A stretch of 64,000 bases of DNA from Desulfobacterales bacterium HSG16 (lineage in GTDB: Bacteria; Desulfobacterota; Desulfobacteria; Desulfobacterales; HSG16): positions 1-64,000 of the forward strand of contig JAUCGE010000010.1 in the NCBI GenBank assembly GCA_030377965.1. The letters run 5' to 3'. The notes beneath the pieces were generated by a model. The model worked only from the letters and a program-made list of their open reading frames with translations. It did no database searches and was not told where the DNA came from. This document shows positions 1,590 through 28,225 of this stretch, piece by piece; position 1 is the stretch's first letter; every line of letters begins with the position of its first letter. A program made the position numbers and the translations under genes.

Positions 1590-2531
1590 TCAGGGCATCT
1601 TTGACTTCTTTGATTCATAATTAGCGATCAAAATACCAGATACAATGAGCAATGCGCTGTAAAAATGTACCATGCTGATGCTCTCTTTCAAGAATAGATA
1701 TGCCAAAAAGCCGCTGAAAAGAGGCAATGTATAGTAAATCATCCCTGCTTTTGACGGGCCGACTGCTACAATTGCCTTGTTCCATAAAATGAAAGCTGAA
1801 AGTGAAGCAAAAATACCGACGTAAAGAATTGCAGAAATTGTCTTTATATCGACTTCGGCAGAAGGCGTAGTTGTATATTCCCAGATAAAAAACGGAAATA
1901 GAAATATGAGTCCTAATATAAATGTGCTTAACTGAAAAGCCCATATGCTTAACTGTGCAGGTTTTCGTTTCAATAAAATGCTGTAAACAGCAAAAATTAT
2001 CGCTGCTGCAAGCATCCAGACATCACCTATGGCAAAAGATATATTCAAAAGCCTGGCAAGGATTCCTCTGGTAATCAGGAGGACAACACCTGTTGCAACA
2101 AGTATAATTCCGATTCCCTTGTTTACAGTTATCAGTTCATGAAAAAAAATCCGGGAAAAAATGACAATGAAGACAGGAAAAGTAATAGAAATCAGTGAAA
2201 GATTGATGGCGCTGGTTGTGTGAGCTGCAAAATAGATCAGAGTATTGAATGTTGTAATTCCCAGTAATGATGTAACAGACAGATAGACAATGTTTTTTTT
2301 GAGAATATCCCATTCGGTAATGATGGATTTCAATGCAAAAGGCAAAAACACGATTACAGCAACGACCCACCTCCAGAAGGCAAGGCTTATTGGTGGTATG
2401 CTTTCATTCAGACCGCGTGCAATGATAAAATTGCCTGACCATATAGCCGTTGCACCAACAGCAAAAAGGTAGCCTGAAATTATTTGTCGATTTTGTGATA
2501 CATTTGTCAATTTAGAAATTTCCTTTTTCAC
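1590..2531 (-). CDS. EamA/DMT-family inner-membrane transporter
   Basis: A 313-residue protein made almost entirely of hydrophobic helices, about ten segments, with the two-fold repeat typical of EamA (drug/metabolite transporter) proteins. The N-terminal repeat begins with an AIWSGNFIIARGL-like segment and the second half ends in a short charged tail (YESKKSKMP). Length matches the family. The start codon overlaps the stop of the upstream cyclase gene by 4 bp, so it is probably translated as the last gene of the chemosensory operon. Substrate cannot be told from sequence; family members export amino acids, metabolites or drugs. Its link to signalling may be only transcriptional. Confidence 0.88.
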   Translation of the reverse strand: MKKEISKLTNVSQNRQIISGYLFAVGATAIWSGNFIIARGLNESIPPISLAFWRWVVAVIVFLPFALKSIITEWDILKKNIVYLSVTSLLGITTFNTLIYFAAHTTSAINLSLISITFPVFIVIFSRIFFHELITVNKGIGIILVATGVVLLITRGILARLLNISFAIGDVWMLAAAIIFAVYSILLKRKPAQLSIWAFQLSTFILGLIFLFPFFIWEYTTTPSAEVDIKTISAILYVGIFASLSAFILWNKAIVAVGPSKAGMIYYTLPLFSGFLAYLFLKESISMVHFYSALLIVSGILIANYESKKSKMP

Positions 2532-4525
2532 TTTGAATCAAGAGTCCAGACCCCGTTCCAGTCTGTGGGGGAATTTTCGATCAGCTTCCGGCATCGGGCC
2601 TGATATACACGGGAAGGATTGAGTTTTCCTGACTGGGTGACTTTTTCGAGTTTATCACAGGACGTAAATACAGCGAGAGCATCTTTAAAATCGCCATTAC
2701 GAAACGCTTCTATACCTTTATCGAAAGAAGATATCAGATTTATTTCATTTTCAGTCAAATCTTTTTTCGTGTTGAACACCTCATAGCATTCTACAGGCTT
2801 CTTTTTCCCTTTTACACGGACAAGATCTATCTTTCTTGCACCGAACTCATCGAAAAGATGTTTTATGGTGTATTCGCTGACAAGGTTGTAAATGCCGTAT
2901 TGTTTGGATGCGGATTCGAGCCGGGATGCGAGATTTACAGGATCTCCTATGGTGGTAAGATCAATTCTGGCATCTGCACTTCCGATGTCGCATAGAATGA
3001 TTTCGCCAGTATTGATACCGACCCGGATACGGATAGGGTCTTTGGATAGAACAGGATGGGTTTCGTTCATCAGGGCAAGTTCTCTGTTCAGGATGATAAA
3101 CGAACGGACAGCTCTTCTGGCTGAAATTGCAGGATTTTTATCGAGCCAGAAGGCCATGCAGGCATCTCCGATGAATTTATCGATATCTCCCTCATTGCCC
3201 ATGATAACTCTTGTCACGACATCGAAAAGAGCGTTGATCTGGGCAACTATCTGCTTTGGAGAATATCTTTCGCATCTGGAAGTAAAACTTTCGATATCGC
3301 TGAAAAAAATGGTTGCACGTTTTATGTCCGCCCGGATAGAAGACTCTTTGCCGGAGAGAATCGATTTTTCCAGAGCCATGCTCAATGAAGCTTTTGAAAC
3401 ATATTTTTCCAGCTGGGCTTTTTCCATAGAAGCGCGCCGGTCAGCCAGAGTACGTTCAACCGTGGCAAGAAGGCTGTCCATAGAGAAAGGTTTGCTGATA
3501 ACGCCTGCTGCTCCGGCATTCATTACCATTTTTGTGTCTGCATCACTATCTCTTGATGTAATGATCAGCATTGCAGGCTGTTCCTGTTCAGGCAGGCTTT
3601 TTAAAGCGGCTGCCAGATCTATGGCATTACCGTCTGCCAGATCTATTTCCGAGATTACAAGATCATAATGAATCTTTTTGAGCAGTTTCAGCGTTGATTT
3701 TACGTCGCAGAGGACGCGAGCTGTAAACCCTTGTTTTGAAATAGATTTAGCCATATTATCAGCTATCTGCCTGTCCTGTTCCAGGATCAGGATGTTTTCC
3801 CGGCCCACAAGGGTGGATTTGAAAACTTTTTTGATACGATCCAGCAGTTCCGGTATGACGACGGGCTTGATAATATATTCGTCAACTCCGGCCTTGAATC
3901 CTTTCTGCTGATCGGAAGATGACGAAAGAGTGCTTGACATGATTATATAAATATCGCTTGTTTCCGGATTGCTGCGGATGGCTGAACATACCTCGAATCC
4001 GTTCATTTTCGGCATTTCAATATCGCAGATGATCAAATTCGGCTTGATTTCGAGTGCCTGAGCCAGTCCCTCCTGTCCATTTTCTGCCCCGAAAACTTCG
4101 TATCCAGCTTCTTCTAACGGGGAAGTCAGGTGTTTATGCACAAGCTTTGAATCGTCAATGATGAGAATGCGCCGGGTGTCGTCTTGAAGTTCTTTGATAG
4201 CCTCTTCTATGGTTTCAAAAAGGAGGGGAAACTGAAAAAAACAGTCAACGGCAGCGCCTGCGTCTTCTTTTGTCAGATAATCGGAAGAAAGCAGGATGAT
4301 TTTTATCTCCTGTGCGAAGATTCTCTTGAGTTTTCTGGCAAGCTCTATCAGGCTGTGTTCGGAAGTATCCGACTGGAGCAGTAAAATTTCCGGCGGAGTT
4401 TCCGCAATGGCCTGGGCAAGGTTTTTTTCGGCCACGGAAGTTACCGAATATCGTTTTTCGGCAAAGTTTTTTTCCATATACCGACGATAGAGTCTGTTTT
4501 CGACGGAAAGGGTTACTTTGGTCAT
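2528..4525 (-). CDS. Multi-receiver class III adenylate cyclase
   Basis: 665 residues. Three receiver-like domains precede a class III nucleotide cyclase domain (about residues 400-590). REC1 (about 5-112) lacks the acceptor Asp. REC2 (about 119-236) is intact with Asp168 in an ICDIEMP context. REC3 (about 243-361) has Glu293 where the acceptor Asp should be (ISEID). The cyclase has both metal-binding Asp residues (Asp410 in FFSDIESFT, Asp454 in KFIGDACMAFW) and Lys450, the usual purine-selecting lysine of adenylate rather than guanylate cyclases. A short region of unknown fold follows. It lies 2 bp after cheA, so it is the likely phosphotransfer target and converts chemosensory input into cAMP. 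cAMP specificity is inferred from residues. Confidence 0.9.
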   Translation of the reverse strand: MTKVTLSVENRLYRRYMEKNFAEKRYSVTSVAEKNLAQAIAETPPEILLLQSDTSEHSLIELARKLKRIFAQEIKIILLSSDYLTKEDAGAAVDCFFQFPLLFETIEEAIKELQDDTRRILIIDDSKLVHKHLTSPLEEAGYEVFGAENGQEGLAQALEIKPNLIICDIEMPKMNGFEVCSAIRSNPETSDIYIIMSSTLSSSSDQQKGFKAGVDEYIIKPVVIPELLDRIKKVFKSTLVGRENILILEQDRQIADNMAKSISKQGFTARVLCDVKSTLKLLKKIHYDLVISEIDLADGNAIDLAAALKSLPEQEQPAMLIITSRDSDADTKMVMNAGAAGVISKPFSMDSLLATVERTLADRRASMEKAQLEKYVSKASLSMALEKSILSGKESSIRADIKRATIFFSDIESFTSRCERYSPKQIVAQINALFDVVTRVIMGNEGDIDKFIGDACMAFWLDKNPAISARRAVRSFIILNRELALMNETHPVLSKDPIRIRVGINTGEIILCDIGSADARIDLTTIGDPVNLASRLESASKQYGIYNLVSEYTIKHLFDEFGARKIDLVRVKGKKKPVECYEVFNTKKDLTENEINLISSFDKGIEAFRNGDFKDALAVFTSCDKLEKVTQSGKLNPSRVYQARCRKLIENSPTDWNGVWTLDSK

Positions 4526-4527
4526 TT

Positions 4528-7500
4528 TTATTTTATTCCCAAGTAGTTATCAATTGCTTCAATAAGAACTGCGGTGTCCACTGGTTTGTTGTAATATTCA
4601 TTCACACCAAGTTGCCGGGCCCGTTCATGATCTGTATCAGTGGTTTTTGCCGAAATAAAAAAGACAGGTGTATTTTTATGCATGGGCAGCTGGCGAAGTC
4701 TTTCTACAAATTCGAAACCATCCATGACGGGCATGATGACATCCACACAGAAAAGGGAGTAGTTTTTATTGCGAAGGTCTTTGAGTGCATTGAATCCGTT
4801 TTCAGCCATTCCCACGGAATATCCGGCCCGGTTAAATGCTGAATGCAGATTTTTGCGATGTATGGCCGAGTCGTCTATAATCAGGATGGAATGGTTCTGC
4901 CTGGTTTTATTAATCTTTTCTTTACCTCTCAGGGGTTCTGCCTGTAAATTTTCAGTGTAGTTGACAAACTCCCAGGCGTTTAAAACCATTACCAGTCGGC
5001 TGTCGCTCAGTACGGTGCAGCCCATGATATAAGGAATTTTCTTTATCAGAGTTCCGAGATCTTTTATAAGGACTTCCTGCCGTCCTGTTATGGTATCGAC
5101 AAGCACACCGACTTTCTTTTCGCCTTCTGATAGAACGATCAGTGGAATTTCAGTGTCTGAAAGAGTACTCGGGGGAAACTTGAAGACATTAGATAAAGTG
5201 GTTATGGGCAATGTATTCCCGCGAAGATTGTAAACCATGTCGCAGGAGAGCTGATTAATATCTTCTTTATTGATATGCAGGATTTCCTCCACATGGATAA
5301 TGGGAAAAGCGAATTGAAAAGGCCCTTCCTGAACCAGGAGAATTTCTACCACGGCAAGGGTAAGGGGCAGTTTGATCTTTAAAGATGTCCCCTGGCCCAG
5401 AGCGGTATCAATGTTTATGGAACCCTGGATCTGCTTGATGGCAGACTTCACTACATCCATCCCGACCCCTCGACCGGATAACCTGGTCGTTTTTTCTACA
5501 GTTGAAAAACCCGGTTCAAAAAGAAAATCTAAAATCTGGTTTTTGTTCAGAGATTCGGCAGCCTGTGGTTCGATCAGGCCGTGTTCAATGGCCCTGGCCT
5601 GGATAGCGTCTGGATCAATGCCCTTGCCGTCATCGGTTATTTCGATAATTGCGTGAGAACCCTGATAATAGGCTTTGAGTGATATTCTCCCTGATTCTGG
5701 TTTGTTTCTTCGCAGTCTTTCTTCCGTGGTTTCGATTCCATGATCAATCGAATTACGCAGAATATGGAGAAGAGGATCGACTAATTGATTGATAAGAATC
5801 TTGTCAAGTTCCGTATCAGCACCGCTGATGTCCAGCCTGATTTTTTTGCCGACCTGCCGGGCTGTTTCACGTACCTGGGTTGGAAAACGTTCAAAAAGAC
5901 TGGCAATGGGTACCATGCGAAAACTCATGGCTCCAGATAAAAGCCGGGAACTTAAATGTTCGAGGTCGTCTGTATTTTTCCGCAGACGTTTGCAGATTTC
6001 CTCAATAGAGAGAACATTGAGTCTCATTTCTTCGGGTATGACGACTTCATTTTCTGTCATATCTTCTATAAGTTCATCGTGAAAACGGTTGATAGTTTTC
6101 GATAATTCCTTTTCCGAAAAAAAAATTTCTTGTTTCTGCAGTATCACTTCAATATCTTTCAAAAGTCCATTGTTCGACTCTGCAAGACGTTTCATAATCT
6201 CTTCAGGAGCAAAATCTTCCATATGATGGATCGTCGTCTTAAAATCCTTGATAGAATTCCCAATGGCCGCAATGTCGTTTTGAAGCCTGATCCTGCTTAT
6301 AAAGATTTCCGATGCGGTATTCAAGACTTCATCAAGCTTATGGGTAGCCAGGCGTATGGTATCGGTCAATAAGGGTTTTGTCGTTTTAATATTTGATTTC
6401 TGCCTGTCTGTAACCGTCGTTACAAGTTTCTTCAAGGCGTTTTCGGGTGTAGCCTCATCTTTTTTCAAGGCTGGTTTTTCTTTCAGCGGTATCTCGTGAA
6501 TAGCTGGTTTTGACATGTCGGGAGAAACGATACCAGCGGTCGCTTCCAGAATTTTTTCGACAAAAGGGAATGTGCGGGCGGTTACAGGCCCTTTTGAGGC
6601 AACATCTTCTACCATCTCTTCGATACATTTTCTGCTATCAAGAAGAAGGTCTATCAAAGTCGGCGTTATCTCTATTTCTTTTTTACGCAGCCTGTCAAGC
6701 AATGTTTCCAGATGATGGGTCAGGTATTCGATTTTTTGCACTTTCAAGAGCCTGGCACCGCCTTTTACAGTATGGACAAGCCGAAATATCTCATGGATGA
6801 CGGGAACCGGCTCGTTACTATTTTCAAGCTCGATAAGTTGATTGCCGACCTGGATAAGACTTTCCCTGCATTCTTCACAAAAAATACTGATCATGCCCAC
6901 TTTGTTTACGGGAACATTGAGCGGCTCGGGTTCGTCGTCAAATGGCGGTTCTATGGCTGCATCTTCCGAAAAGCCGGGCCCGGTCTGTAAACTGGACATG
7001 GCCTGTAAACTGGGCATGGCCTGTAATCTGGGTTTTGAAGAACTGCTTTCTTCTGTTTCAGATAATTTTTCATCATGGGAAACAGACTTTTGCATTTCCG
7101 CATTATTTTCGTGTGTGTTTTCATGTTCGAGCAGTTTTTGCAGATAGTTTGCACACTCTTCGACCACATCGTGTAAATCAATGCTGCACAGCCTGTCTGT
7201 TTTGTATTCATCCACTGATTTTCCGGTCGTTTCTATAATCAGGCTGATCAGGTATTTTAAAGAATGTTCGTTCAAAGTTTGAGTTTTGCGGGCATAATCG
7301 ACAACAAAGTCGAGTATGGCAAGCAGATGGCAGATTTTGGGAATATTGAAAATATCAGCAAACCCGTAAAGAATATGGCTGCGACGGTATAACTCGTCAA
7401 AGATATCTTCATTTTCGTTTTGTTCAATTCCCCTGACAGTGGATTCTATCCAGTCGAACTCTTTAGATATATCATCAAAAAACAGGAGGGCATTTTTTTC

Positions 7501-7641
7501 CGTTTCCAAACCGGTTTTCGAGCCGATTTCCGAGCCAGAACCTGTTCCAGAATCTTTTGCCCCGGAGTCTGGAATAAGATGAGAGGATGTGGAATCGCTG
7601 TCCCAGGCTGTAAGGAGTTGTGGATGGTAGTTTTTCATCAT
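4528..7641 (-). CDS. cheA: Hybrid chemotaxis-type histidine kinase CheA with C-terminal receiver
   Basis: 1037 residues. An N-terminal Hpt-like helical bundle contains His89 in RRSHILYG. A Ser/Glu-rich linker with short repeats (about 180-245) follows, then a canonical Hpt with His290 in RLVHTVKGG. After that come the P3 dimerisation helices, an HATPase with N box (ILRNSIDHG), G1 (DDGKGID), F box (EPGFST) and G2 (GRGVGMD), a CheW-like P5 domain, and a C-terminal receiver with Asp in FCVDVIMP. The start overlaps the CheW gene stop by 4 bp. The CheY-like receiver fused to the kinase and the absence of cheY, cheR and cheB nearby suggest an alternative-function chemosensory system, not flagellar chemotaxis. 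The cyclase downstream is a plausible phospho-target. Confidence 0.94.
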   Translation of the reverse strand: MMKNYHPQLLTAWDSDSTSSHLIPDSGAKDSGTGSGSEIGSKTGLETEKNALLFFDDISKEFDWIESTVRGIEQNENEDIFDELYRRSHILYGFADIFNIPKICHLLAILDFVVDYARKTQTLNEHSLKYLISLIIETTGKSVDEYKTDRLCSIDLHDVVEECANYLQKLLEHENTHENNAEMQKSVSHDEKLSETEESSSSKPRLQAMPSLQAMSSLQTGPGFSEDAAIEPPFDDEPEPLNVPVNKVGMISIFCEECRESLIQVGNQLIELENSNEPVPVIHEIFRLVHTVKGGARLLKVQKIEYLTHHLETLLDRLRKKEIEITPTLIDLLLDSRKCIEEMVEDVASKGPVTARTFPFVEKILEATAGIVSPDMSKPAIHEIPLKEKPALKKDEATPENALKKLVTTVTDRQKSNIKTTKPLLTDTIRLATHKLDEVLNTASEIFISRIRLQNDIAAIGNSIKDFKTTIHHMEDFAPEEIMKRLAESNNGLLKDIEVILQKQEIFFSEKELSKTINRFHDELIEDMTENEVVIPEEMRLNVLSIEEICKRLRKNTDDLEHLSSRLLSGAMSFRMVPIASLFERFPTQVRETARQVGKKIRLDISGADTELDKILINQLVDPLLHILRNSIDHGIETTEERLRRNKPESGRISLKAYYQGSHAIIEITDDGKGIDPDAIQARAIEHGLIEPQAAESLNKNQILDFLFEPGFSTVEKTTRLSGRGVGMDVVKSAIKQIQGSINIDTALGQGTSLKIKLPLTLAVVEILLVQEGPFQFAFPIIHVEEILHINKEDINQLSCDMVYNLRGNTLPITTLSNVFKFPPSTLSDTEIPLIVLSEGEKKVGVLVDTITGRQEVLIKDLGTLIKKIPYIMGCTVLSDSRLVMVLNAWEFVNYTENLQAEPLRGKEKINKTRQNHSILIIDDSAIHRKNLHSAFNRAGYSVGMAENGFNALKDLRNKNYSLFCVDVIMPVMDGFEFVERLRQLPMHKNTPVFFISAKTTDTDHERARQLGVNEYYNKPVDTAVLIEAIDNYLGIK

Positions 7642-8669
7642 TCACGAAAGCAATATGGTTTAAGACGATCAGAAGTGAAGAGATGGGGGACTGCCAGGAT
7701 GAAAATGCGCCCCCTTTCATCTTCGTAAATACCTGTTACATATTCCGTTATTTCTCCGCTGAGAACAGTATCCGCTTTCTGAATTTCAGATACAGGCAAT
7801 TTTTTTATGGTCGAAACCCTGTCCACGCATAAAGCCAGTTCAGAGTCATCGCCAGCCAGCACGATAAAACGGTTGTTCTCTCCCAGAGAGCGCAGCGGAA
7901 GGCCGAGGGACTCGGATATGTCGAAACATGCCAGTACCTTGCCTCTGAGACTTATCAGCCCGCGGAGCGCAGGGTCTACATCGAAAAAGGGAGAGACTTC
8001 GTAACCTTCAATGATTTCAAGAACTTTTTCCACAGGAATCCCGAAATGAAATTCATCAATACACGCTCCAATGAATTTTTTACTTGCCTTTTCATCTCTG
8101 TACACCAGCCTGCCGTGTTCTTTCTTTTCGTTTACAGCCGAAAGGAAGCGCTGTTGACCGAAAACTTTTTTTACCATCCGGCTTATTCTGATCAGGGAAA
8201 GAACTATCAGGCTGCTGCCACGAAACCCTTTTATTGAGGCGATCATGTTCGTTTCATCCGAAAAATCTGTATCCTCTTGCTCTGTATCCTCTTGCTCTGT
8301 ATCCTCTCGCTCTGTATCTTTTTGATCCTTATCTTTTTGACTTGGCCTTTCATCGTCAAAAACGACGGTATCTATGAACTTATCCATTGCCAGCCCGAAA
8401 AAAGTATCTTCATATCTGGCTATTATAACTGCATCGTATTTTATCTGTTGGTTTGAATTTTCACCTGCCCGACACAGAAGGATCGGATCGAATACAGGAA
8501 CTATGTTGTCACGATGTTCTATATTTCCAATACACCCGTGAAGAGTTCCGTAAAAGGGCAGAAATCTGGAACTATGCACCATTTCCAGTACGCTTGTAAT
8601 GGGCATAGCGTATTGAATGTCCTGATGGATATATATAAGGTATTTTTCGGATATAGTCATAATTTTCAC
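7638..8669 (-). CDS. Tandem CheW-domain coupling protein
   Basis: 343 residues with two CheW-like domains, one at about residues 8-175 and one at about 200-335 (the second contains FGIPVEKVLEII and LRGLISLRGKVL). Between the halves of the first domain lies an acidic insertion made from five 15-bp units (repeats of DTE(Q/R)E), which looks like a disordered linker grown by repeat expansion. It should bridge the upstream MCP and the downstream CheA into an array. The start shown is GTG, 8 bp after the MCP stop; an in-frame ATG three codons later is an equally good start and neither has a strong Shine-Dalgarno. Double CheW proteins occur in several non-flagellar chemosensory systems. Confidence 0.88.
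   Translation of the reverse strand: MKIMTISEKYLIYIHQDIQYAMPITSVLEMVHSSRFLPFYGTLHGCIGNIEHRDNIVPVFDPILLCRAGENSNQQIKYDAVIIARYEDTFFGLAMDKFIDTVVFDDERPSQKDKDQKDTEREDTEQEDTEQEDTDFSDETNMIASIKGFRGSSLIVLSLIRISRMVKKVFGQQRFLSAVNEKKEHGRLVYRDEKASKKFIGACIDEFHFGIPVEKVLEIIEGYEVSPFFDVDPALRGLISLRGKVLACFDISESLGLPLRSLGENNRFIVLAGDDSELALCVDRVSTIKKLPVSEIQKADTVLSGEITEYVTGIYEDERGRIFILAVPHLFTSDRLKPYCFRE
8266..8340. repeat. 15-bp tandem repeat, five units, inside CheW gene
   Basis: Five consecutive 15-bp units based on TCTGTATCCTCTTGC (the last two diverged) encode an acidic pentapeptide repeat on the minus strand. The period is a multiple of three, so the frame is kept. Confidence 0.95.
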
Positions 8670-8677
8670 AAAATCGC

Positions 8678-11158
8678 TTAGAAATCTTCCAGAGATTTAT
8701 TGTCCATATCCAGATCAATATGTTTGGAATCTGCTGGCTGTATTGTCATATTTGCAGTTCGTCGCAGCCGTTCCTGTTCCGGTTCCGATTCCGATAACGA
8801 TTCCGATAACGATAACGACGCATCATGGATCTGGTCTATTCTCTGGTGTTGTGAAGAAGCCGGAGTTTTTTTATCGAACTTGAAAAAATTAATCGATTGT
8901 TGAAGATGATCTACCTGGAGGAAAAATTCCTGTGATGTAGCGGCCAGTTCTTCGGATGATGCTGCATTCTGCTGAATAATCCTGTTGAGTTCGTGTATGC
9001 TTATATTGACTTCATCAGCGCCTTTGCTCTGCTCATCACATGTCATCGAAATAGTGGCCATCAGTGCCTTGGTTTTTCGGATATCCGGGAGCAGTTCGGT
9101 CAGCATATTCCCGGTTCGTTCAGCGACTTCCATTCCTTCGGCAGAGGCCTGCCTGACTTCAGCTGCTGATTTCTGACTGTTCTCTGCAAGTTTGCTGACT
9201 TCGGAAGCTACGACAGCAAATCCCCGCCCCTGTTCGCCCGCCCGTGCTGCCTCCACGGATGCGTTCAAGGCCAGCAGATCAATTTTTCGTGCAATATCTT
9301 CCATTATATTTATTTTTTCTGCAATGGTTTTTATGAAATTGAGAGCTTTGAGTACGGCATTGACGCTTTTTTGAAAATTATCAGCGATATCCGTAGTAAT
9401 ACCTTCGGTGGTCTCAGCATTGTTCGCATTCTGCCTGATGCCTGCCGCCATCTGTTCCACAGCGGCTGAAGTTTCATCCACCGAACTGGCCTGAGTGGCT
9501 GCACCCGTAGATATATTCTGGGCAGCACTGCTCAGTTCCGCACTGCTGTTGGTGATATTATTGGAAACTATGGAAATTTTTTCAACTATACTCCGAAGAT
9601 TGTTCACCATTGTTTTGAGAGCAATTCTGAGAGTGTCTCTATCCGAACGGATCACAGGTTCGGCATCAAGATTACCTGCCGAAATTTTTTCCGCTACTTC
9701 GACAGTGCTTCTCAGGTTGTCCAGCATGGTTGTAAGTGCTATTCCAAGAGTGTCTTTATCCGAACGGATCACAGGTTCGGCATCAAGATTTCCAGTCGAG
9801 ATTTTTTCTGCTACTTCGACAGTGCTTCTCAGGTCTTTCTGCATCAGATCAATATATGACACAAGTTCTCCAATTTCGTCCCTGGCATTGGTATTGAGGG
9901 TGCAGGACAGATCACCTTCGGCAATGGAGCGGACATTGGAGATGACATCGCGAAGCCGCCGAGCGATAGATTTTGACAGGAGAAGACTGAAAAATATTCC
10001 GATAATCATTGCAGAAATACTGATGAAGAGCAAAGTTTTCCTGGCTTCAGCTTCATTATTTCCTGCGTTTTGTATGGATTGTCTGGTAAAATCCTTGATT
10101 TTTCTCAGAAAGGCTGCAAGACCTCGGCTAAACAAATCCTCTGTTTCTGCGATGTTTTTCTGGAGATTCGATATTTCTGGAATTTTGTCATAATACTCGT
10201 TGATCAAGTCAAAAATCTTTGACGCATTATTTATGTAGATATTGTACTCTCGCTTGATTTCAGACAGTTCAACAAGGGTTTGTTCGAATCCTGCAAGCTG
10301 TTCCATGTGTTCGGAAATCTTTTTTATTTCAGCTTCAATTTTTTCAGTCAGCTTGTCAAAATTATTTTTGTTTTCCTTGAATTTTCTCTCGCTGTCTGTG
10401 CCAGGATAATGCAAAGATTTTTCAAAACTTAAAGACAACTTAAGCTGAAGTTCGACAATCCGTATTATGCTGTTTACCATCGGAATCTGAACATCTGGAA
10501 TCTGAACATCTGGAATCTGAACATCTGAAATCTGAACATCCTTTATCTCTTCAGCTATTTCCGATTTTTTCGTTCTTTTTTGGACATCATACAAAACATC
10601 TTCAAGTTTCCTGCTGAGTAAAGTCCCCTTTTCTTCAATGATTTCTTCCAGGCGTTCAATCTTTTCAAAAGATTTCAGGCTTGATGTTTGAAGCCTGAAT
10701 ATCTGCAATACCTGCTGTTCGTATTTACCATGTCGGGCCTCGACTTCCTCTAAATGTTCAATTATTTTTTCATAGTCTTCTTTGCTGTCACCTCGCGATA
10801 AATTGCTGATGGCATCGGTAGCTATTTTCTCGCCTTCTTCTATTAATTTGTCAAATTTTGCGGCTAATTCTTCAAATTCTTTTTTCGTGGTTTCGAATTG
10901 ATCGGGCTTATTCTTCAGTGCATAAATAAAGACTTTTTCGAATAAGATTGACTGCATCAGCTGATATTCGACAACCTTCGTGATGACCTCTGTCAAAGGC
11001 ATATCTTCATGGGCTATTTCTTTCAACTCATTGCTGATCTGCTTCATGCTGAAGGCAGAATACACAGCGATGGCCACAATCATGAAAATGAGGAAACATG
11101 ACAGGCATGAAATTTTAGTACGTAATTTTAAAGTATTCATTTTAAGCATTTGTTTCAC
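8678..11158 (-). CDS. Methyl-accepting chemotaxis protein with enlarged helical sensor
   Basis: 826 residues. TM1 at about 17-37, a long periplasmic all-helical region (about 38-370), TM2 at about 373-395, HAMP, then a 39-residue HAMP-adjacent unit present twice (STVEVAEKIS...NLDAEPVIRSD), and the cytoplasmic signalling hairpin whose tip reads IDLLALNASVEAARAGEQG. The periplasmic part contains two related segments (EYQLMQSILFEK and ELQLKLSLSFEK), suggesting a duplicated four-helix ligand module. Between them is a repeat DVQIPDVQIP encoded by four 15-bp units. The tail is Ser/Glu-rich and ends SLEDF, resembling but not matching a CheR-tethering pentapeptide (usually with Trp). It is first in the operon, and ATG at 11158 has TTTCACCT (AGGTGAAA in sense) upstream. 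Ligand unknown. Confidence 0.94.
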   Translation of the reverse strand: MKQMLKMNTLKLRTKISCLSCFLIFMIVAIAVYSAFSMKQISNELKEIAHEDMPLTEVITKVVEYQLMQSILFEKVFIYALKNKPDQFETTKKEFEELAAKFDKLIEEGEKIATDAISNLSRGDSKEDYEKIIEHLEEVEARHGKYEQQVLQIFRLQTSSLKSFEKIERLEEIIEEKGTLLSRKLEDVLYDVQKRTKKSEIAEEIKDVQISDVQIPDVQIPDVQIPMVNSIIRIVELQLKLSLSFEKSLHYPGTDSERKFKENKNNFDKLTEKIEAEIKKISEHMEQLAGFEQTLVELSEIKREYNIYINNASKIFDLINEYYDKIPEISNLQKNIAETEDLFSRGLAAFLRKIKDFTRQSIQNAGNNEAEARKTLLFISISAMIIGIFFSLLLSKSIARRLRDVISNVRSIAEGDLSCTLNTNARDEIGELVSYIDLMQKDLRSTVEVAEKISTGNLDAEPVIRSDKDTLGIALTTMLDNLRSTVEVAEKISAGNLDAEPVIRSDRDTLRIALKTMVNNLRSIVEKISIVSNNITNSSAELSSAAQNISTGAATQASSVDETSAAVEQMAAGIRQNANNAETTEGITTDIADNFQKSVNAVLKALNFIKTIAEKINIMEDIARKIDLLALNASVEAARAGEQGRGFAVVASEVSKLAENSQKSAAEVRQASAEGMEVAERTGNMLTELLPDIRKTKALMATISMTCDEQSKGADEVNISIHELNRIIQQNAASSEELAATSQEFFLQVDHLQQSINFFKFDKKTPASSQHQRIDQIHDASLSLSESLSESEPEQERLRRTANMTIQPADSKHIDLDMDNKSLEDF
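10482..10541. repeat. 15-bp tandem repeat, four units, inside MCP gene
   Basis: Four units of GGAATCTGAACATCT (last with two changes) encode repeated DVQIP on the minus strand within the periplasmic helical domain linker. Confidence 0.95.
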
Positions 11159-11330: not shown

Positions 11331-12224
11331 TTAAACTCCAGAATAAATCAACTCAATCCAGCGATCGCTTGAAAATAGTCCATCTGCCCAGTCTGCATCA
11401 AGATCGGCCAGAGGTCTGGCGGCTGCGGCCTCTTTGGCGGTTTTTCCTTCAGCTTTAAGCTTGCTCAAGCGTTCATAAGCAGTGTTGAGCATCTTACGAT
11501 AATCTGCCAGTTGTTTTTTGTCTGCCAGCGGGCCGTGTCCCGGTATAATTTTTGTATTGTCGTCAGCTACAGATAAAACAATGTCAACAGCTTTAATAAT
11601 TCCCTTGAGCGAGCCGCCATGATTGACATCGATAAATGGATAGAAACCATTGAAAAAGAAATCACCGGCGTGAATAACATTGGCTGTTTTAAAATAGATA
11701 AAACTGTCACCATCGGTATGGGCGTTGGGTACATGGGTAGCATGGACAGTGTCGCCGTTAAGATGAAAACTTATATCCTTAGAAAAAGTCACGACAGGTA
11801 AACCTTCACTGGAAAGACCTGCCCGCTTTGTATTAAACGCCTGCAAAAATGAACCATTTTTCAGGCGCTCACGCACATTGTCGTGAGAAAAAATTAAAGT
11901 GCCGCCCTGGCCCAATTTTTCGTTTCCGCCTGTGTGATCACCGTGGTAATGAGTATTAATAAGAAATTTCGGATGATCCCCGCCGACAGACTTGATGCCA
12001 GCAACAATTTTTTCCGTTAAAGGAGCGAATTGATCGTCAATTAGAAAGGTTCCGTCCTTACCGATAAAGACACCGAGATTCCCCCCTTGTCCTGCAATCA
12101 TATAAATCTGTTGAGTGATTGCAACAGGAACAATTTTTTTTTCGTCGGCAGACCATCCGGGTGTTGCAAGTGACATTAAACCTGCGATCAAAATAAAGAA
12201 TACAGCCGTCATTTTACCAATCAT
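11331..12224 (-). CDS. Exported metallo-beta-lactamase-fold hydrolase
   Basis: 297 residues from the ATG at 12224, chosen because AAAGGAGG stands 8 bp upstream; a longer frame from 12266 would start before this ribosome site. It has an N-terminal signal peptide (MIGKMTAVFFILIAGLMSLA, cleavage near GWSA-DE) and then an MBL fold with the zinc motif HYHGDHTGG, downstream His in VPNAHTDGDS, Asp in VIHAGDFFF and a final GHGPL. The combination resembles the quinoprotein relay / SoxH-type subgroup of periplasmic MBL proteins more than true beta-lactamases. Substrate cannot be named. It is transcribed divergently from the MaoC-NRPS operon across a 280-bp A+T-rich gap. Confidence 0.88.
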   Translation of the reverse strand: MIGKMTAVFFILIAGLMSLATPGWSADEKKIVPVAITQQIYMIAGQGGNLGVFIGKDGTFLIDDQFAPLTEKIVAGIKSVGGDHPKFLINTHYHGDHTGGNEKLGQGGTLIFSHDNVRERLKNGSFLQAFNTKRAGLSSEGLPVVTFSKDISFHLNGDTVHATHVPNAHTDGDSFIYFKTANVIHAGDFFFNGFYPFIDVNHGGSLKGIIKAVDIVLSVADDNTKIIPGHGPLADKKQLADYRKMLNTAYERLSKLKAEGKTAKEAAAARPLADLDADWADGLFSSDRWIELIYSGV

Positions 12225-12408
12225 CTGTAAGCCTCCTTTGAAGTTAAAATAGAAAGAGAATGTCATTTAACTTTACTGGCGATGAACTCTCTTTTAATGA
12301 AACTTTTTTATACCCATCCACCCATAGCTAAATCTATTATTAGTAATCGATAAGTTATAATATGTCAAGCACAAAGAAAAGATAAAAATAAAATACTATT
12401 ATAAATCA

Positions 12409-12437
12409 TTGACCTTTTTGAACTGAGAAGTTAAAAT
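12409..12437 (+). promoter_or_regulatory. Candidate sigma-70 promoter for MaoC-NRPS operon
   Basis: TTGACC at 12409-12414 and TAAAAT at 12432-12437 are separated by 17 bp, close to the TTGACA/TATAAT consensus, about 70 bp upstream of the MaoC start. Found by eye; no transcription data. Confidence 0.5.
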
Positions 12438-12505
12438 CATGCTTATTTTACATGAAATGGATAAAACGCAGACAAAATTGACATTTTTTGCACAGGAGGT
12501 GAATT

Positions 12506-12946
12506 TTGACAGGCAAAGCGTATGATGAGATAAGCATCGGTCAGACATTTTCAGCATCATTGACAGTAACTGAGACTCATATCGTCCAGGGTTCGGGGTT
12601 GTTCGGTGATTTCAATCCCCTGCATGTCAATGAGGAATATTGCAAAAGCACTTCATTTGAAACCCGCATTCTGCACGGCCCGCTTACTTCTGCCCTGATG
12701 TCAGCCCCCATAGGAAATTATTTTGCAGGTACGGCAATAGCATATCTTGAGCATAACTGCCGTTTCCTTAAACCCGTCAAAGCCAATGACACCTTGACAA
12801 CGGTATGGACAATTGCAGGCAAGCTGGACAAACCGAAACACAATGGCGGAATTGCGGTTCTGTCTGCAACCTGCCATAATCAGAATAAAGTATCCGTGGC
12901 TGAGGCCGAAGGTAAAATTCTTTTGATGAATCGTTTGACAAAGTGA
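12506..12946 (+). CDS. MaoC-like hot-dog hydratase
   Basis: 146 residues. The TTG start is chosen because AGGAGGTG lies 4 bp upstream. The fold is the single hot-dog MaoC domain; the hydratase-type motif is seen in GLFGDFNPLHVNEEYCKST (Asp and His of the (R)-specific enoyl-CoA hydratase signature), followed by ILHGPLTSALMS. Family members hydrate trans-2-enoyl-CoA to (3R)-hydroxyacyl-CoA. It sits 87 bp upstream of the FAAL-containing NRPS on the same strand and is probably co-transcribed. It could supply or tailor a 3-hydroxy fatty acid starter, but this is inference from position only; it may also serve general fatty-acid metabolism. Confidence 0.85.
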   Translation: MTGKAYDEISIGQTFSASLTVTETHIVQGSGLFGDFNPLHVNEEYCKSTSFETRILHGPLTSALMSAPIGNYFAGTAIAYLEHNCRFLKPVKANDTLTTVWTIAGKLDKPKHNGGIAVLSATCHNQNKVSVAEAEGKILLMNRLTK

Positions 12947-13033
12947 TAAAAGACCTCTGTTGGGTGTATATATAAACATAACCTAACTATCAGATATTGT
13001 TTGGGTCAATTTTACGCAAAAGGATTGCTAATC

Positions 13034-16000
13034 ATGAATCAATTAAATGAAAACGGGGCGGGAAAAATTTCTGATCTGGCATCACTTTTAAGATTCAAGG
13101 CCAAAACACAGCCTGACAAGACCGGGTACATTTTTTTAAAAAACGGAGAAAAAGAGGAGTCTTCGATTACATACAGTCAGCTTGACGCAAAAGCTATGGC
13201 TATTGCCGAAAATCTGCTGATCAACTGCCGGAAAAATGACAGAGTTCTATTACTCTATCCTTCCGGAATAGATTATATTGCGGCTTTTTTCGGGTGTATA
13301 TACGCAGGCTGTATAGCTGTACCGGTCTATCCTCCTCAACCGGCAAGAATGGACAGAACCCTTCCCAGGCTTTTGAGCATAGTATCGAATGCATGGCCTT
13401 CCGCTGTTCTGACAACATCTAAATTCTTTCGAATGAAAGACAAAATGCTGATGTTCGATCAGTCTTTCGATAGAATGAAATGGCTTGTCAGCGATGATAT
13501 GAAAGAGCCTGCTGCGCCTGATTGGAAAGGGCCTTTGATAGAGCCTGATATGATAGCGTTTTTACAATATACTTCAGGTTCTACAGGCAACCCTAAAGGC
13601 GTGATGATAAGCCACAGTAATTTGATGCATAACCAGGAAGTTATCAAGGCCGGGTTTGAATCCAGAGAATCGAGCGTGGCTGTCGGATGGCTGCCTCTTT
13701 ATCATGATATGGGCCTGATCGGCAATATAATGCATTCTCTCTACAGGAGCATTAAAATCGTTTTCATGTCTCCCATGTCATTTCTGCAAAAGCCATCTCG
13801 ATGGCTTAATGCAATCTCGAAATACAGTGCGGCTTTCAGTGGCGGACCCAATTTTGCTTATGATTTATGTGTTCAAAGAGTATCTTCCGATCAGAAAAAA
13901 GAACTCGATCTCAAATGCTGGGATACTGCATTCAGCGGGTCTGAACCAGTCCGCTTTGAAACTATAGAACGTTTTTCAAAAGCTTTTGAATGCTGCGGCT
14001 TTACAAGAAAAGCTTTTTTTCCGTGTTATGGGCTTGCCGAAGCGACTCTTATGGTTTCCGGCAACAGAAAAGAGGAACCCATAATCAAATCATTCGATTT
14101 AAAAGCCTTGAATGAAAAACGCATGATTGTATCCTGTGAGAAAACCACAGAATCGACGAATCTGGCAGGCGCGGGCAGGCCGGTGAAAGGACAGCTGGTC
14201 AAGATAGTTGACCCTGAAACATTTGAAGTATGCAAATCCGGTGAAATCGGTGAAATCTGGATATCCGGGCAGAGTGTTGCCGGAGGATACTGGAAAAACC
14301 CGGATGAAACCCGCAAAATGTTTCAGGTTCGCCCGAAAGAATATAAAAATATTGAGCCTGGCCGAACATTTTTCAGAACCGGGGATCTCGGGGCTTTTTA
14401 TGATGAAGAATTATTTATTACAGGCAGAATCAAGGATATGATCATCATCCGGGGAAAAAACCATTATCCCCAGGACATAGAAAAAACCGTGGAGAAGAGT
14501 TTCCCACTGATCAGGCCGGGGTCATGCGCTGCCTTCTCCGTAGAGCATAAAAACAATGAACGACTTGTAGTTGTTGCAGAAATTGAACGCCGCCATATAG
14601 AACATAAAAAGCCTGCTTCTGATGGCAGAAGACGTAGAAAACCGAAAAATCTAAGAAATTTCAAAATATTACCCGAATATGATCATGAAGACAATCTGCC
14701 TTTTTCAGCAGAAGATGCCCTTAATGCAGTTCGTGCGGCAGTTTCAAAACGGCACGACCTCCAAGTCTGGGCGCTGATGTTAATAAAAGTTGGAACCATT
14801 CCGAAAACTACAAGCGGAAAGATAAGGCGTAATGCCTGTAAATCCGAATTTTTCAATAAAGAGTTTAACCTGGTCGCAAGCTCCATTATAGCAGACAAAC
14901 TTTCCGATGAAGATATTAAACTGCCTGGTAAAAAAGAATTAATGGGAGTATCTTTCGAGACAGGCAAAAAATTACTTGGAACCGGCCTTATAAATCTTGC
15001 AGCAAAAATATTGAAGATAGATCCGTCAACAATTCGAAAAGAAAATCATTTGACAGGTCTTGGTATAGATTCTCTGCAAGCTGTCGAATTTCAGCATTTT
15101 ATTGAGAGTGAATATAGCATGAAAGTGCCGATGATCAAATTTTTGCAGGGACTCAGCATAGAACAACTATCTGGTGAAATATGCCTTGGACTGGATGAAT
15201 CGCATAACGATTCTGTCGTTACTGCTGAAACAGGCGCATCAAAACCTTTCACATCATATCCGCTTTCACATAATCAGCGATCATTGTGGTTCATGCACAA
15301 ACTGGACCCCAGAGGCTCTGCCTACAATGTCTCCTTTGCCGTTAGAATCAAGAATAACCCGGACACCAGAATTTTGAAAAAATGTTTCAAAGTACTTGCC
15401 ATGCGCCATCCTTCGTTAAGGACAGAATATAAAGAACAGGACAATGGCCCGATTCAGGTGATAAATGATGATCCAGATATTTATTTTGAAATAGAAGACG
15501 CATATTTTTCAGGCCCGAAAGAACTCAATAACCATTTATCGAAAAAAGCTCATATAGCATTTGACCTGGAAAACGGGCCGATATTCAGGGTCAATCTTTT
15601 CAAGCTGGACGAAAAACAGATAATTTTATTGTTCTGTGTTCATCACATAGCCATAGATTTCTGGTCTATTAACATATTAATGGCTGAACTGGGGATTTTA
15701 TACGAAGCAGAACTGAAAGAAGAAGGATCTGGCCCCGGACTGCTGAACTTTGCAGGCATGTCCTGTGCCGATTATGCCCGTTTTCAAACAGAAAGGCTGG
15801 CAGGAATTGAAGGTGAACGACTCAGGACATACTGGAAAAATATGCTGGGAAATGATATTCCTGTTCTCGACCTGCCGACCGACCATAAAAGACCGACAGT
15901 TCAGACATATAACGGGGCTTCTCATGGTTTTGCCCTGGATGGATATATGGCTCATATGGTCGAAAAACTGGCAAAAAATACAGATACCACACAATATATG

Positions 16001-19000
16001 GTGCTTCTTTCAGCTTTTCACATTCTACTTCACAGATTATCAGGCCAGACGGACATCCTGACGGGTTCTCCTGCTGCCGGGCGAACACATGCCAGTTTTT
16101 TCGAAACTGTGGGCTATCTTGCCAACCCGGTAGTTATCAGAAGTGATTGTTCTGAAAATCCGAAATTTTCAGCATACCTTGAACAGATTCGTAAAAAAGT
16201 GATAGGAGCCCTTGATCACCAGGATTACCCCTTTCAACTACTTGTGGAAGAACTGAATCTTCGCCGTGATCCGAGCCGTACTCCTTTGTTTCAGGTGATG
16301 TTCGTTCTGGAAAAGCCCCATCTTATAAAAGAATCAGCTCCTTTCATCCTGAACGAACCAGGAGCAAATTTTAAACTCGGAAGTCTGATACTCGAATCAA
16401 AAGCTATAAACAACAGGGCATCCCAGTTTGATCTGACCCTTATCATGGTTCGTACTGAAACCGGTTTTCGTGCATCCATAGAATATAACACAGATATCTT
16501 CGAAAAGAAGAGTATTGTCAGGATGGCCGGCCATTATATCAATATTTTAAAATCTATAGTCGATGACCCAAACAGTAAAATATCGAATCTGAATATGCTT
16601 TCTCCAGGAGAAAAAAGACTGGTTATACAAGGCTTTAACGAGACCAAAGCCCGATACTCTCTTTCAAAAAGTGTTGTACAGTTATTCGAAGATGAGGTTG
16701 AAAAAACCCCGGAGAGGACTGCAACTGTATTCCAGGGGAAAAAGACAAGCTATCTTGAATTAAACAGACATGCCAATCGTATAGCCAGTTTTCTTTTGAA
16801 TCATTTTCAAATAAAGCCTGGCGAAATAATAGGCTCCGTACTGGATCGTTCAGATATGACAGTGGCTGGAATGCTGGGTATAATGAAAGCAGGTGGCGCT
16901 TATACTCCTGTGGATATGTCATATCCGCCAGAACGGATACGTTATATGATCGAAGACAGCGGATTACGGGTCGTAATTGTTGACAGGGCAGGAAAAACCC
17001 TGCTCGATTCTCTTGATCTTGACTGTAAAACAGTTGACATCACAACCATTCATGAAAATGTCGATAATCCATGCCTTAATATTGCAGCCCAAGATCTTTC
17101 ATATGTGCTTTACACATCAGGATCTACAGGAAAACCCAAGGCCGTCATGCAGACCCACAAATGCCTGAGCAACCTCGTGCAATGGCAGACTCGTGCAATC
17201 GGCAGAGAATTTCGGATATTACAGTATGCAGCACTTGGATTTGATGTTTCCATCCAGGAAACATTGTACAGCCTCGTTTCAGGCTCCACCCTCTTTATCA
17301 TCCCGAATTCTCTCAGATATGATATGGCAGGTTTATCGGCCTTTATCAGAAAAAATCGGATCAATCTTTTTACAATGCCTTTTTCGCCCATGAATCTTCT
17401 GTTCAAAGAAGGCCGGACGATTACAGACAACCCTTATTTACGCCATATTGTCACATCAGGGGAAGCATTGAAAATTTTTCCGGAACTTGCCGATTATCTG
17501 TTAAGACATCCTAATGTCAGACTTCATAACCAATATGGGCCTACAGAAACCCATGTAATAACTGCTCACACTATTTCGAGTGAACTCGGAAATATAAAGA
17601 CGTACCCGCCCATAGGAAAACCCATTGCTAATACAGAGATCTACATCCTTGACGAATATTTCAACCCGTGTCCTGTCGGTGTCGTCGGTGAAATTTATGC
17701 AAGTGGAGCGAATCTGGCCAGAGGGTATTTGAATAAAGAAAGTATGACGGCAGAAAAGTTCATATCAGGGGTTGCTCCGGTAGAATCAAAGCGCATTTAC
17801 CGGACAGGAGATATGGGAAGATGGCTTGATGACGGAATGATCGAATTTCTGGGACGAAATGACGACCAGGTAAAAATCCGTGGAAACCGAGTAGAGCTGC
17901 AAGAGATTGAAAACCGGCTTCTTCAACATCCAGCGATAAAAAATACTGTAGTTATTGCAGGAGAATTCAAGGAAGGCCAGACAGAAATAGCAGCCTATAT
18001 AATATTATCTAAAAAAAATGAAAAATCTGAAAATCCTGAAAAAAATGATGATATAACAGATTTGAGAAATCATTTAAAAAAGAGCCTGCCCGATTATATG
18101 ATTCCTTCTTATTTTGTATTCCTCGAATCTTTTTCTCTGACTCCTAACGGCAAAGTGAATAAAAAAGACCTGCCCGACCCTTTAAAAGCTGGTGTGCATA
18201 CGCAAAAAACCCAGGCCGGGCCGGAAAATGACATCCACGAAAAACTTATCGATATATGGATCAAAATTCTGCCTGTAGATTCAATTGGTATAACAGAGGA
18301 TTTTTTCCAATGTGGCGGACACAGCCTCACTGCCATACAATTGATAAGCAGAATTCATAAAAATTTTGGCGTTAAGATGGCTGTCAGCGCAATTTTCGCA
18401 GGCCCGACTATAGCAGAAATGGCTAAAAAAATTCAAAATACGCAGCCTTCGGAATATGAACGAATAATTCCTGAACCCGAAAATCCAGACTCAGGGCAAA
18501 GGAACACATGGCCGCTTTCCAATGCCCAGAGCCGCCTTTTTATTTTACATCAGATTGCAGGGGGGCATATAGCATATAATATGCCAGGGGCCATGAAAAT
18601 CAAAGGTGATTTCAATCAAACAACCTTGATTCACGCATTTACCGAACTTATAAAACGGCATCAATCCCTTCGCACCGTTTTTGTCATCGAAAACGGCGTA
18701 CCATGCCAGCGAATAACACCGCCCCCTGAAAATCTAATTGATGCCGGGATAATCAGAATTATAGACCTGCCTGATGATCTTGATCTTGATAATGATCTTG
18801 ATTTGGAAAAAAAATCTAAAGAATTAATTCTAAAGGATGCAAATACACCTTTCGATCTTGAAACCGGGCCTCTTGTCAGGATCACCCTGGTCAAGGTGAC
18901 AGCTGATAGAAAAAAAGTGACAACTGATAGAAAAAAAGCGGCAAATGATAGAAAAGAGGAAAAATCGTCCGGGAACATCATGATCATAAACATGCATCAC

Positions 19001-21904: not shown

Positions 21905-22017
21905 TTACCTGTGTATAACTTTTATATTCCTGTTTCTGACGGTGCATTGTACCCTGCAGAAGTTTATTTTTTGTACAGGCACTTATATCGGCAGGTATAA
22001 AACAGAAAGAATGAGTT

Positions 22018-25000
22018 ATGAGCGAAATCTATTCGGATGATATTATCGAAGAATCTATGGTAGGCGAGGATATGGTAGATGAGGATGCTGTTGCCATCGT
22101 TGGAATGGCAGGAAGATTTCCTGGAGCTGATTCTGTTGAAAGCTTCTGGGAAAACCTTTGCAATGGAAAAGAATCGATCACATTCTTTTCTGCCAAACAA
22201 CTTCTCAAAGCAGGTATAAGTCCACAAATATTAGATAATCCGGCATATGTCCCGGCACGAGGTGTTCTTTCTGACATAGAAATGTTTGATGCCGATTTTT
22301 TCGGCTTCTACCCTCGAGAAGCTGAAATCATGGATGTCCAGCATCGAATTTTTCTTGAATGCGCGTGGCAGGCTCTTGAAAACGCGGGCTATGATCCAGA
22401 CAATTATGATGGCGAGATCGGCGTATATGCAGGTGCGGGCATGAGTACATATTTTCTCAATAATTTAATTCCGTATTTCAATGTTGCAGATCCAAGCTTT
22501 GCATACCAGGCGATATTATCGAACGACAAGGATTTTTTATCTACTTTGACCGCGTACAAACTTAATCTCAAAGGGCCTGCCATTGGTGTGCAGAGCGCAT
22601 GTTCGACATCCCTTGTGGCAGTTCATACCGCATGTCAGAGCATTGCAAACGGCGAATGCGACATGGCTCTGGCAGGCGGCGTTTCAATAGATGTTCCCCA
22701 GGTTGCAGGTTATATGTATGAAGAAGGCATGATTCTGTCAAAAGACGGTCATTGTCGGGCATTTGACGAAAAAGCGGGGGGGACAGTTCCGGCAAGCGCC
22801 TGTGGTATAGTATTATTGAAAAGATTGAATGACGCTGTCGAAGACAAGGATAATATCCTTGCCGTGATAAAAGGATCTGCCGTAAATAACGATGGATCGC
22901 TCAAGGCCGGATATACTGCCCCAGGTATTGACGGGCAGACGGACGTGATTGCTCAGGCCCTTGCCGTCGCAGATATCGAGCCTGAAACCATAAGCTGCCT
23001 GGAAGCTCACGGAACAGGTACATCCCTCGGAGACCCGGTGGAAATAGAGGCATTAAAAAAGGCTTTTGATACAGGTCATGGGAAAAAAGGTTTTTGCGCC
23101 ATAGGTTCTGTCAAAACCAATATTGGTCATACCAACGCTGCGTCGGGAATAGCAGGCTTCATAAAAACAGTCCTGTCAGTTAAACATAATCTGCTTGTTC
23201 CATGCCTTCATTTTAATAAGGCAAATCCTGGAATCGACTTTGAAAACAGCCCTTTTTTTGTAAATACTCAACTGACAGACCGGAAGAACAGCGAAAATAT
23301 TCCCATGAGAGCTGGTGTGAGTTCCTTTGGTATCGGCGGAACAAATGCCCATATTATAATTGAGGGTTATCATGACCGTCAGGGTTATCCCTGTCAGAGC
23401 AGATCTGTCCCGGATTCAGAAAAAAAGAAGGAAAAACCAGCCCTTCTCATTCTTTCGGCAAAGACGGAAAATGCACTTGATAAAGCCGCAGAAAATCTTG
23501 CCCGTCATTTTGAAAATTATCCAGATATAGATATTCATGATGCTGCCTATACATTACAAATCGGACGCAGATCGTTTGCACACAGGCGCACGATGGTATG
23601 CCATAACACAAAGGAAGTTATACAGAATTTGACTCCTGGAAAAAAATACCTGGCTTCTTCTGTGGTGAAATCAGGCAAAAGGCCCGTGATATTTATGTTT
23701 TCAGGACAGGGGACACAATACACAGGCATGGCAGAAGATTTATATACGAACAACCGGATATTTAAGGAAGCAGTCGATTGTTGTGCAAAAAAACTTCTGC
23801 ATTTACTCGATTTTGATATCAGGGATGTTATATGGCCAAAAAGTCCTGGAATCAGAAGGAATCTGCCGGATATTTCCAGTTCCGATACTTGTCAGCCTGC
23901 TATCTTTGTTATCGAATACGCACTATCTCAACTTTTCATGAAATGGGGAATTTGTCCTGCAGCAGTAACAGGCCACAGCTTAGGCGAGTATGCTGCCGCA
24001 TGTGTTTCAGGTATCTTTAATCTTGACGACGCACTGAAGCTTGTATGCAGAAGAGGCAAACTTATAAACGACCTGCCGCCAGGAGCCATGATTGCCGTCC
24101 CCATGCCCGAAGAGGACATAAAATCGTATATGGAGCCATCCCTTTGTTTTGCGGCTGTCAACACTCCAAAACGCTGTGTGATTTCAGGGCCTTTGGATGC
24201 AATAAATCGTATAGCAAACAGATTTGAAAAAGATGGTGTCCAACCTGTACGTCTGAAAACTTCACATGCATTTCATTCTTCAATGATAGAACCGGCTATA
24301 AAGCCTTTCGCTGATTTTTTCGAAGGTATTGATTTTGGAAATATTAAAATTCCAATGTTATCATCGGTTTCAGGCAGCTGGCTTAAAAATGAACAGGTAA
24401 ACAATCCTGAATATTGGACAAATCAGATGCGAAGTACCGTCAGATTTAAAGAAGTTATAGAAAAAATATTTGAAAATAATAATGGAGAAGACAGTCCAGT
24501 ATTGCTCGAAATTGGCCCTGGAACTACGCTTGCTGGTATTGTCAGAAGTCATCCGGCAACCCCTTGTGATCATCCTGTTATAACATCAACACGACATCCA
24601 AAAATTATATCCGATACGGACAATAAAATGGCAGATACTGTTCATATAACCGAAGCTGTCGGAAAACTATGGGCTGCCGGGGCAGATATAGACTGGGAAG
24701 GTTTTTATGATGGCAGCAGGCATTATCGAGTTCCCCTTCCTTCATATCCTTTCGAGCGTAAGCGGTACTGGATAGAAGAAAAAAAATCTGAGGCAATAAA
24801 AAGAGAACCCTTATTAAAAAAGAGAAATGATGACCCTGCCCTGATCTGGAAGTATGCGACCGAAACAGCCGCAGAAAAAGCCGGAGAGCAAGACATGAAC
24901 AGCCTTAAATGGCAGGAAAAAAAAGCAGATATGAACCGCTTATGCCTGGCATATATAAATCGGGCGTTTCAAGAATCAGGAGCGTTTATAAAAGAAAATG

Positions 25001-28050: not shown

Positions 28051-28080
28051 GGGCCGTGCATAAATTATGTTACATTTATT

Positions 28081-28114
28081 GTAGGGGCAAACCCTCGTGG
28101 TTGCCCTCCGTACA
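28081..28114. repeat. REP-like element, copy 1
   Basis: 34 bp beginning GTAGGGGCAAACCCTCGTGG, identical to the copy at 37857-37890 and related to the arms of the palindrome at 33007-33095. It is followed by a second GC-rich half (GGGCAGGCACGGGGCATTCCC), as if two half-hairpins are fused. It lies between the PKS and NRPS 2 genes. Confidence 0.9.
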
Positions 28115-28225
28115 AGGGCAGGCACGGGGCATTCCCAAAAAAATAATATCCAGTCCTGCTTGTCTTTTGGCCCGTATTCTGCGTTGCTGCAAAGGGTGAA
28201 GATGTTAAACAAAAAAGGTTATGAT

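Follow-up and report, generated by a model that had tools for sequence, protein, structure and literature searches.

In Desulfobacterales bacterium HSG16, four consecutive genes encode a chemoreceptor, a coupling protein, a hybrid CheA and a class III cyclase with three receivers. Here, we consider it probable, at about 70%, that these genes form an ACF chemosensory pathway, in which CheA phosphorylates the second receiver of the cyclase (REC2) to control cAMP synthesis as the dedicated output of the system. What the sequences give directly is the gene order, its conservation, as well as the acceptor and catalytic residues. A preliminary description of the same DNA had already proposed cAMP as the apparent output. 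This proposal is supported by comparison, because CheA and the cyclase are adjacent across phyla, REC2 is the only cyclase receiver with an intact acceptor, the catalytic residues are of the adenylate type and a second genome harboring the pair contains no other detected CheW or MCP.

Gene order and encoded proteins

The window, meaning the whole stretch of 64,000 nucleotides that was analysed, belongs to a genome of 4.8 Mb in 408 contigs, which is 80% complete. The operon (2528-11158) is located on the minus strand and is transcribed in the order MCP, CheW-CheW fusion, hybrid CheA and REC-REC-REC-class III cyclase. The ORF positions and Pfam domains confirm the coordinates and the gene order given previously. 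The genes are tightly packed, with gaps of 8 bp between MCP and CheW-CheW, -4 bp between CheW-CheW and CheA and 2 bp between CheA and the cyclase. MCP, CheW and CheA are encoded together, as is expected of a Che pathway.

The MCP (8678-11158, minus strand, 826 amino acids; Pfam MCPsignal and HAMP) displays a 4HB-like/TarH-like N-terminus, a HAMP domain with additional HAMP-like repeats and the MCP signalling domain, and it carries methylation-site-like motifs. The coupling protein (7638-8669, minus strand, 343 amino acids) contains two CheW stretches detected by Pfam; the "double CheW" described earlier is correct as to the number of domains, but these are part of a single fused protein.

The hybrid CheA (4528-7641, minus strand, 1037 amino acids; Pfam Hpt, HATPase_c, CheW and Response_reg) has the domain order N1 Hpt-like, Hpt, dimerisation, HATPase, CheW and REC. 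The Hpt domain (P1; 6598-6894, minus strand) was identified by Pfam and by alignment with an acidobacterial counterpart described below, and harbors the motif HTVKGGA with the phospho-donor His290. At the C-terminus, a receiver (4552-4887, minus strand; Pfam and receiver alignment) contains the intact acceptor Asp967.

The N1 region (7126-7521, minus strand), which is left blank by Pfam, appears to be a divergent Hpt-like helical bundle. A comparison of N1 with the Hpt domain of CheA by hhalign yielded an E-value of 1.6e-4 (0.075 for one helical control). Here, His89 aligns at the phospho-His position and is kept in the counterpart. The usual Hpt motif is HxxKG, the Lys of which is replaced in N1. 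A model of N1 together with Hpt (pLDDT 67) revealed a helix pattern of N1 similar to that of Hpt. Foldseek, using this model as a whole, matched CheA P1 structures, but repeat proteins ranked top and the half that was matched is unspecified. The Hpt-like assignment therefore rests on sequence (hhalign) and helix pattern, and not on Foldseek.

The last of the four genes encodes the cyclase (2528-4525, minus strand, 665 amino acids; Pfam two Response_reg and Guanylate_cyc), which consists of REC1, REC2, REC3, the class III catalytic domain and a C-terminal helical tail. Its stop overlaps by 4 bp with the GTG start of a gene for an EamA-family transporter (1590-2531, minus strand; Pfam). Due to this overlap, the EamA gene may be co-translated and is a possible fifth member of the operon. 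On the other side, a metallo-beta-lactamase-fold gene (11331-12266) is present 172 bp upstream of the MCP gene on the same strand. A hybrid histidine kinase (136-1530), encoded on the opposite strand, is the neighbor at the EamA end. A Pfam scan of 17 window proteins revealed no cyclic-nucleotide-binding domain. Further along the window (13001-32935, plus strand) large genes encoding 2967, 2010 and 1612 amino acids are present, the first of which is NRPS-like by eye.

Receivers and catalytic domain of the cyclase

The acceptor residues were judged by aligning all receivers of the operon and of its counterpart. REC2 (3830-4168, minus strand; Pfam and alignment) is intact and contains D124, D125, D168, S198 and K220. 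REC1 (4184-4525, minus strand) and REC3 (3446-3799, minus strand; Pfam and alignment) are pseudo-receivers. REC1 has V/E at the acidic pair, Q at the acceptor and F at the lysine position; in REC3 the acidic pair reads E/Q and the acceptor is E. REC1 gave no Pfam stretch of its own and was assigned from its alignment with the remaining receivers. In the AlphaFold model of the cyclase, the strands and helices of REC1 also alternate as in a receiver; the model is poor (mean pLDDT 47.4, two-row alignment) and served only for this low-confidence pattern. Within the operon, the full DD/D/S/K set is found solely in REC2 and in the receiver of CheA. This agrees with the preliminary description, in which the kinase receiver and REC2 (Asp168) were named as the only intact acceptors. 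In REC2, a full-acceptor receiver is fused to an output domain, the arrangement of a response-regulator output enzyme.

The catalytic domain (2783-3322, minus strand) has both metal-binding aspartates (D410, D454) and, for the transition state, the pair N531/R535, as is expected of class III. The nearest solved catalytic structure is that of CyaB from P. aeruginosa (3r5g, E 3.2e-23). At the adenine-specifying positions, K450 and T524 align with the K and T of CyaB, and cAMP is therefore predicted as the product. K with T is usual for bacterial adenylate cyclases, and the counterpart cyclase has K/S. A guanylate cyclase was considered and rejected, since K450/T524 are adenine-type. According to PMC4215837, adenylate cyclases carry K and D at the purine positions and guanylate cyclases carry E together with one of various residues; T is present at the second position in some cyclases of both kinds, and the pair in Cya2 is E-G.

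A counterpart operon in an acidobacterial genome

A second operon of this type is present on contig CANIII010000007.1 (locus L075) of Acidobacteria bacterium isolate RE-9nov16-25, a MAG of 3.7 Mb (G767). Here, the order is MCP, MCP, CheW-CheW, hybrid CheA with N1 and three-receiver cyclase, which apart from the second MCP is that of the window. The identity is 58% over the whole length of the cyclase, 47-49% over nearly the full length of CheA, 37% for CheW-CheW and 35-38% for the MCPs. Since the four genes keep their order and orientation in another phylum, the arrangement is not due to chance adjacency. In the acidobacterial cyclase, REC1 (Q) and REC3 (T) lack the acceptor and REC2 has kept it, so that the two copies share REC2 as their sole intact cyclase receiver. 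The receiver of CheA is likewise intact in each copy.

In L075, the cyclase gene is followed after 7 bp by cheR and then, with an overlap of 1 bp, by a receiver-bearing cheB (both genes together 12416-14391). No TPR match is found by Pfam in this CheR, and in the receiver of CheB the second acidic position is occupied by H. Within this operon, CheA has three visible phosphorylation targets, namely its own receiver, REC2 and the receiver of CheB. Furthermore, all three CheW matches of G767 and all three of its MCP-signal matches, the latter in two genes, are located in this operon (in a MAG with completeness not stated). Thus, no other chemosensory pathway is detected there for its CheA, and G767 shows no chemosensory system besides this operon.

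On the window contig, no match to CheR or CheB was found, and no cheY is present among the genes of the operon. The earlier remark that the operon contains no cheY, cheR or cheB therefore stands, for CheR and CheB even at the level of the contig. Because the L075 operon has both genes, their absence in the window operon is probably a secondary local loss; judged from two copies, a gain in L075 is the alternative. The place of cheR in L075 is occupied by the EamA gene in the window. The presence of both genes in L075 also rules out their absence as a defining trait of the system. In general, cheR and cheB are not obligatory in every che cluster, and their absence lowers completeness and not membership.

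The operon is rare and patchy. A locus scan with the cyclase as query, covering 84,980 species with one genome each, returned 80 loci, of which only L075 matched over the full length (58%) and the other 79 matched in the receiver part. A cyclase profile built from two rows found one of 395 genomes of the phylum of the window, namely its own, one of 193 of the class of G767 and one of 396 of its phylum, in both cases G767 itself; the genome sets searched may overlap. With the single cyclase sequence, and with up to 3 candidates scored in each genome, matches were obtained in 96 of 389 genomes of the order. Among the matches listed, the non-self ones are confined to the cyclase region (query start of at least 326), with one exception, a REC-cyclase of 491 residues with an internal stop. 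A plasmid-wide tblastn search yielded none of 56 records at 80% query coverage, all being partial and below 60% identity. Here, horizontal transfer of the whole unit would be the simplest explanation.

Chemosensory and cyclase genes elsewhere in the host

As proposed in the preliminary description, the genome was searched for other che clusters. Its chemosensory equipment is very rich: the genome (80% complete) contains 34 matches to CheW and 10 to CheB, but only 3 to CheR, besides 20 to class III cyclases. Among the che loci fetched, the window CheA gave scores of more than 150 bits with at least 13 further ORFs. Due to these 13 other CheAs, cross-talk is possible. By its scores, the window CheA is not close to them, since it matches the CheA of L075 with 884 bits and the best of the 13 host paralogues reaches 287 bits. 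As a separate observation, another che operon (5590-10814 of L039, plus strand) has, at a distance of about 2 kb and on the opposite strand, a gene for a class III cyclase of 379 amino acids (L039:2519-3658, minus strand), which is K-type and has an N-terminus that looks PAS-like by eye.

A further che operon of the host, on contig C45 (L029), encodes CheR, CheW, CheA, MCP and CheB and then a REC-cyclase of 490 amino acids (L029:13986-15458, corresponding to C45:38986-40455) with a single REC and the residues E/G. With a cutoff of E 1e-45, relatives of this cyclase are found in 156 of the 389 order genomes, most of the matches covering the cyclase domain only. The neighborhoods were taken from the 20 best-matching genomes of the order, where several contigs end nearby. 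A che gene is present directly upstream on the same strand in 17 of these 20 loci (16 CheB, 1 MCP), CheA is visible in the fetched stretch in 11, and no che gene lies beside the cyclase in L227, L237 and L238. A second che operon family thus ends in a REC-cyclase, which shows that the coupling of chemosensory genes to cyclases recurs.

At the purine positions of the C45 family, E and G are present in 19 of 21 sequences, the own one included; the exceptions are L236 with A/D and L238 with T/D. The nearest solved sequences are 6fht, which we take to be the E488K Cya2 fusion construct, and 2w01, presumably unmodified Cya2 and named "adenylate cyclase" in the PDB. These two differ at the position of E488K. 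In Cya2 guanylate cyclase fusions, E488K confers adenylate cyclase activity (PMC5995499). Since the E/G residues resemble those of Synechocystis Cya2, cGMP is predicted as the product of the C45 family, unlike that of the window cyclase. Tentatively, the host might possess two arrays with two messengers, cAMP for the window operon and cGMP for C45, each with its own CheA passing phosphoryl groups directly to a fused cyclase, the window operon being of a distinct, horizontally spread type with the cyclase as only output; we regard this wider picture as a real possibility.

Proposed mechanism and alternatives

In the proposed pathway, a stimulus sensed by the MCP would gate the autophosphorylation of CheA at His290 via the CheW-CheW fusion. 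The phosphoryl groups would then be transferred to Asp168 in REC2 of the cyclase. Phosphorylation of REC2 would control either the dimerisation of the catalytic domains or the closure of the active site, and hence the synthesis of cAMP. The effect on the cyclase would be an activation rather than an inhibition. The degenerate REC1 and REC3 may have a structural or docking role, and the receiver of CheA may compete for phosphoryl groups or act as a sink. Adaptation would occur in trans, by CheR and CheB from elsewhere in the host genome.

It could also be that CheA mainly signals to the receivers of other systems of the host, that the cyclase is phosphorylated by another kinase and that the adjacency of both genes reflects co-expression. 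The large number of other CheAs (at least 13), together with the 3 CheR and 10 CheB matches, would fit to this, as would the hybrid histidine kinase next door. Nevertheless, the pair of CheA and cyclase is kept in a genome without any other detected CheW or MCP, and the window CheA resembles the CheA of L075 far more than the paralogues of the host, which makes this explanation unlikely. We judge similarly improbable that the cyclase is controlled by recruitment to the array or by a conformational change via the pseudo-receivers, with phosphorylation of REC2 being secondary, similar to the action of Chp on CyaB via partner proteins. In both copies, REC1 and REC3 have been retained in spite of their degeneration, and in P. 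aeruginosa FimL has been proposed as link between ChpA and CyaB (PMC3019171), yet REC2 also keeps its full acceptor set in each copy.

The absence of the cheR and cheB genes that are present in L075 might further be taken as a sign that the system is decaying in the host, leaving an array without adaptation and an operon without real output. This is very improbable, since all four reading frames are intact, the catalytic and acceptor residues are all kept, the MCP still carries its methylation-site-like motifs and CheR and CheB are encoded elsewhere in the genome. Control of cAMP synthesis by CheA via REC2 is thus the reading that we prefer.

Relation to known systems and significance

The general kind of this system is already known, since REC-cyclases in che clusters have been reported. 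According to a census (PMC3447774), ACF pathways frequently contain multidomain response regulators, and in che clusters with cheR-TPR some of the receivers form fusions with a mononucleotidyl cyclase. With the ACF clusters as described there, the window operon shares the MCP/CheW/CheA core and a multidomain response regulator within the cluster, one mark of an ACF system in that source. ACF systems are otherwise defined by controlling neither flagella nor type IV pili. In contrast to them, the type found in the window and in L075 has three receivers of which one is intact, and synteny across phyla. It also differs from the cheR-TPR clusters of the same text, since the window operon has no CheR and the CheR of L075 has no TPR match in Pfam.

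In P. aeruginosa, the Chp system increases cAMP by way of PilG and CyaB, FimL being the proposed link (PMC3019171 and PMC12632253). The comparison with Chp and CyaB made in the preliminary description is apt as an analogy: both are hybrid-CheA chemosensory systems controlling cAMP, as predicted for the window, and CyaB is the nearest solved catalytic domain. In Chp, the cyclase is separate and is reached via PilG and perhaps FimL, whereas receiver and cyclase are one protein in the window, and no stand-alone CheY regulators of the PilG or PilH type are present in the window operon. The Wsp system (in part PMC11253619) shares a CheA acting on a receiver fused to a second-messenger synthase, as is predicted here; WspR, however, contains GGDEF and produces c-di-GMP, and the window operon has a class III cyclase. 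The C45 operon also ends in a REC-cyclase, but in contrast to the window operon it has a single REC, contains CheR and CheB and is of the guanylate-type E/G. In the open-access literature searched, supplements excluded, no report of the window operon, the three-receiver architecture, the cross-phylum operon or the cAMP/cGMP pair was found.

If the proposed pathway is true, it would connect a chemoreceptor array directly to cAMP, with no CheY in between, which is testable with four purified proteins. Since no chemosensory system besides the L075 operon is detected in G767, the question of the output is not clouded by paralogues there, and operons of this type would be a clean case for testing signalling from sensing to cAMP. 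The paired adenylate-type and guanylate-type operons within one genome would in turn allow a test of how a cell separates two cyclic-nucleotide channels.
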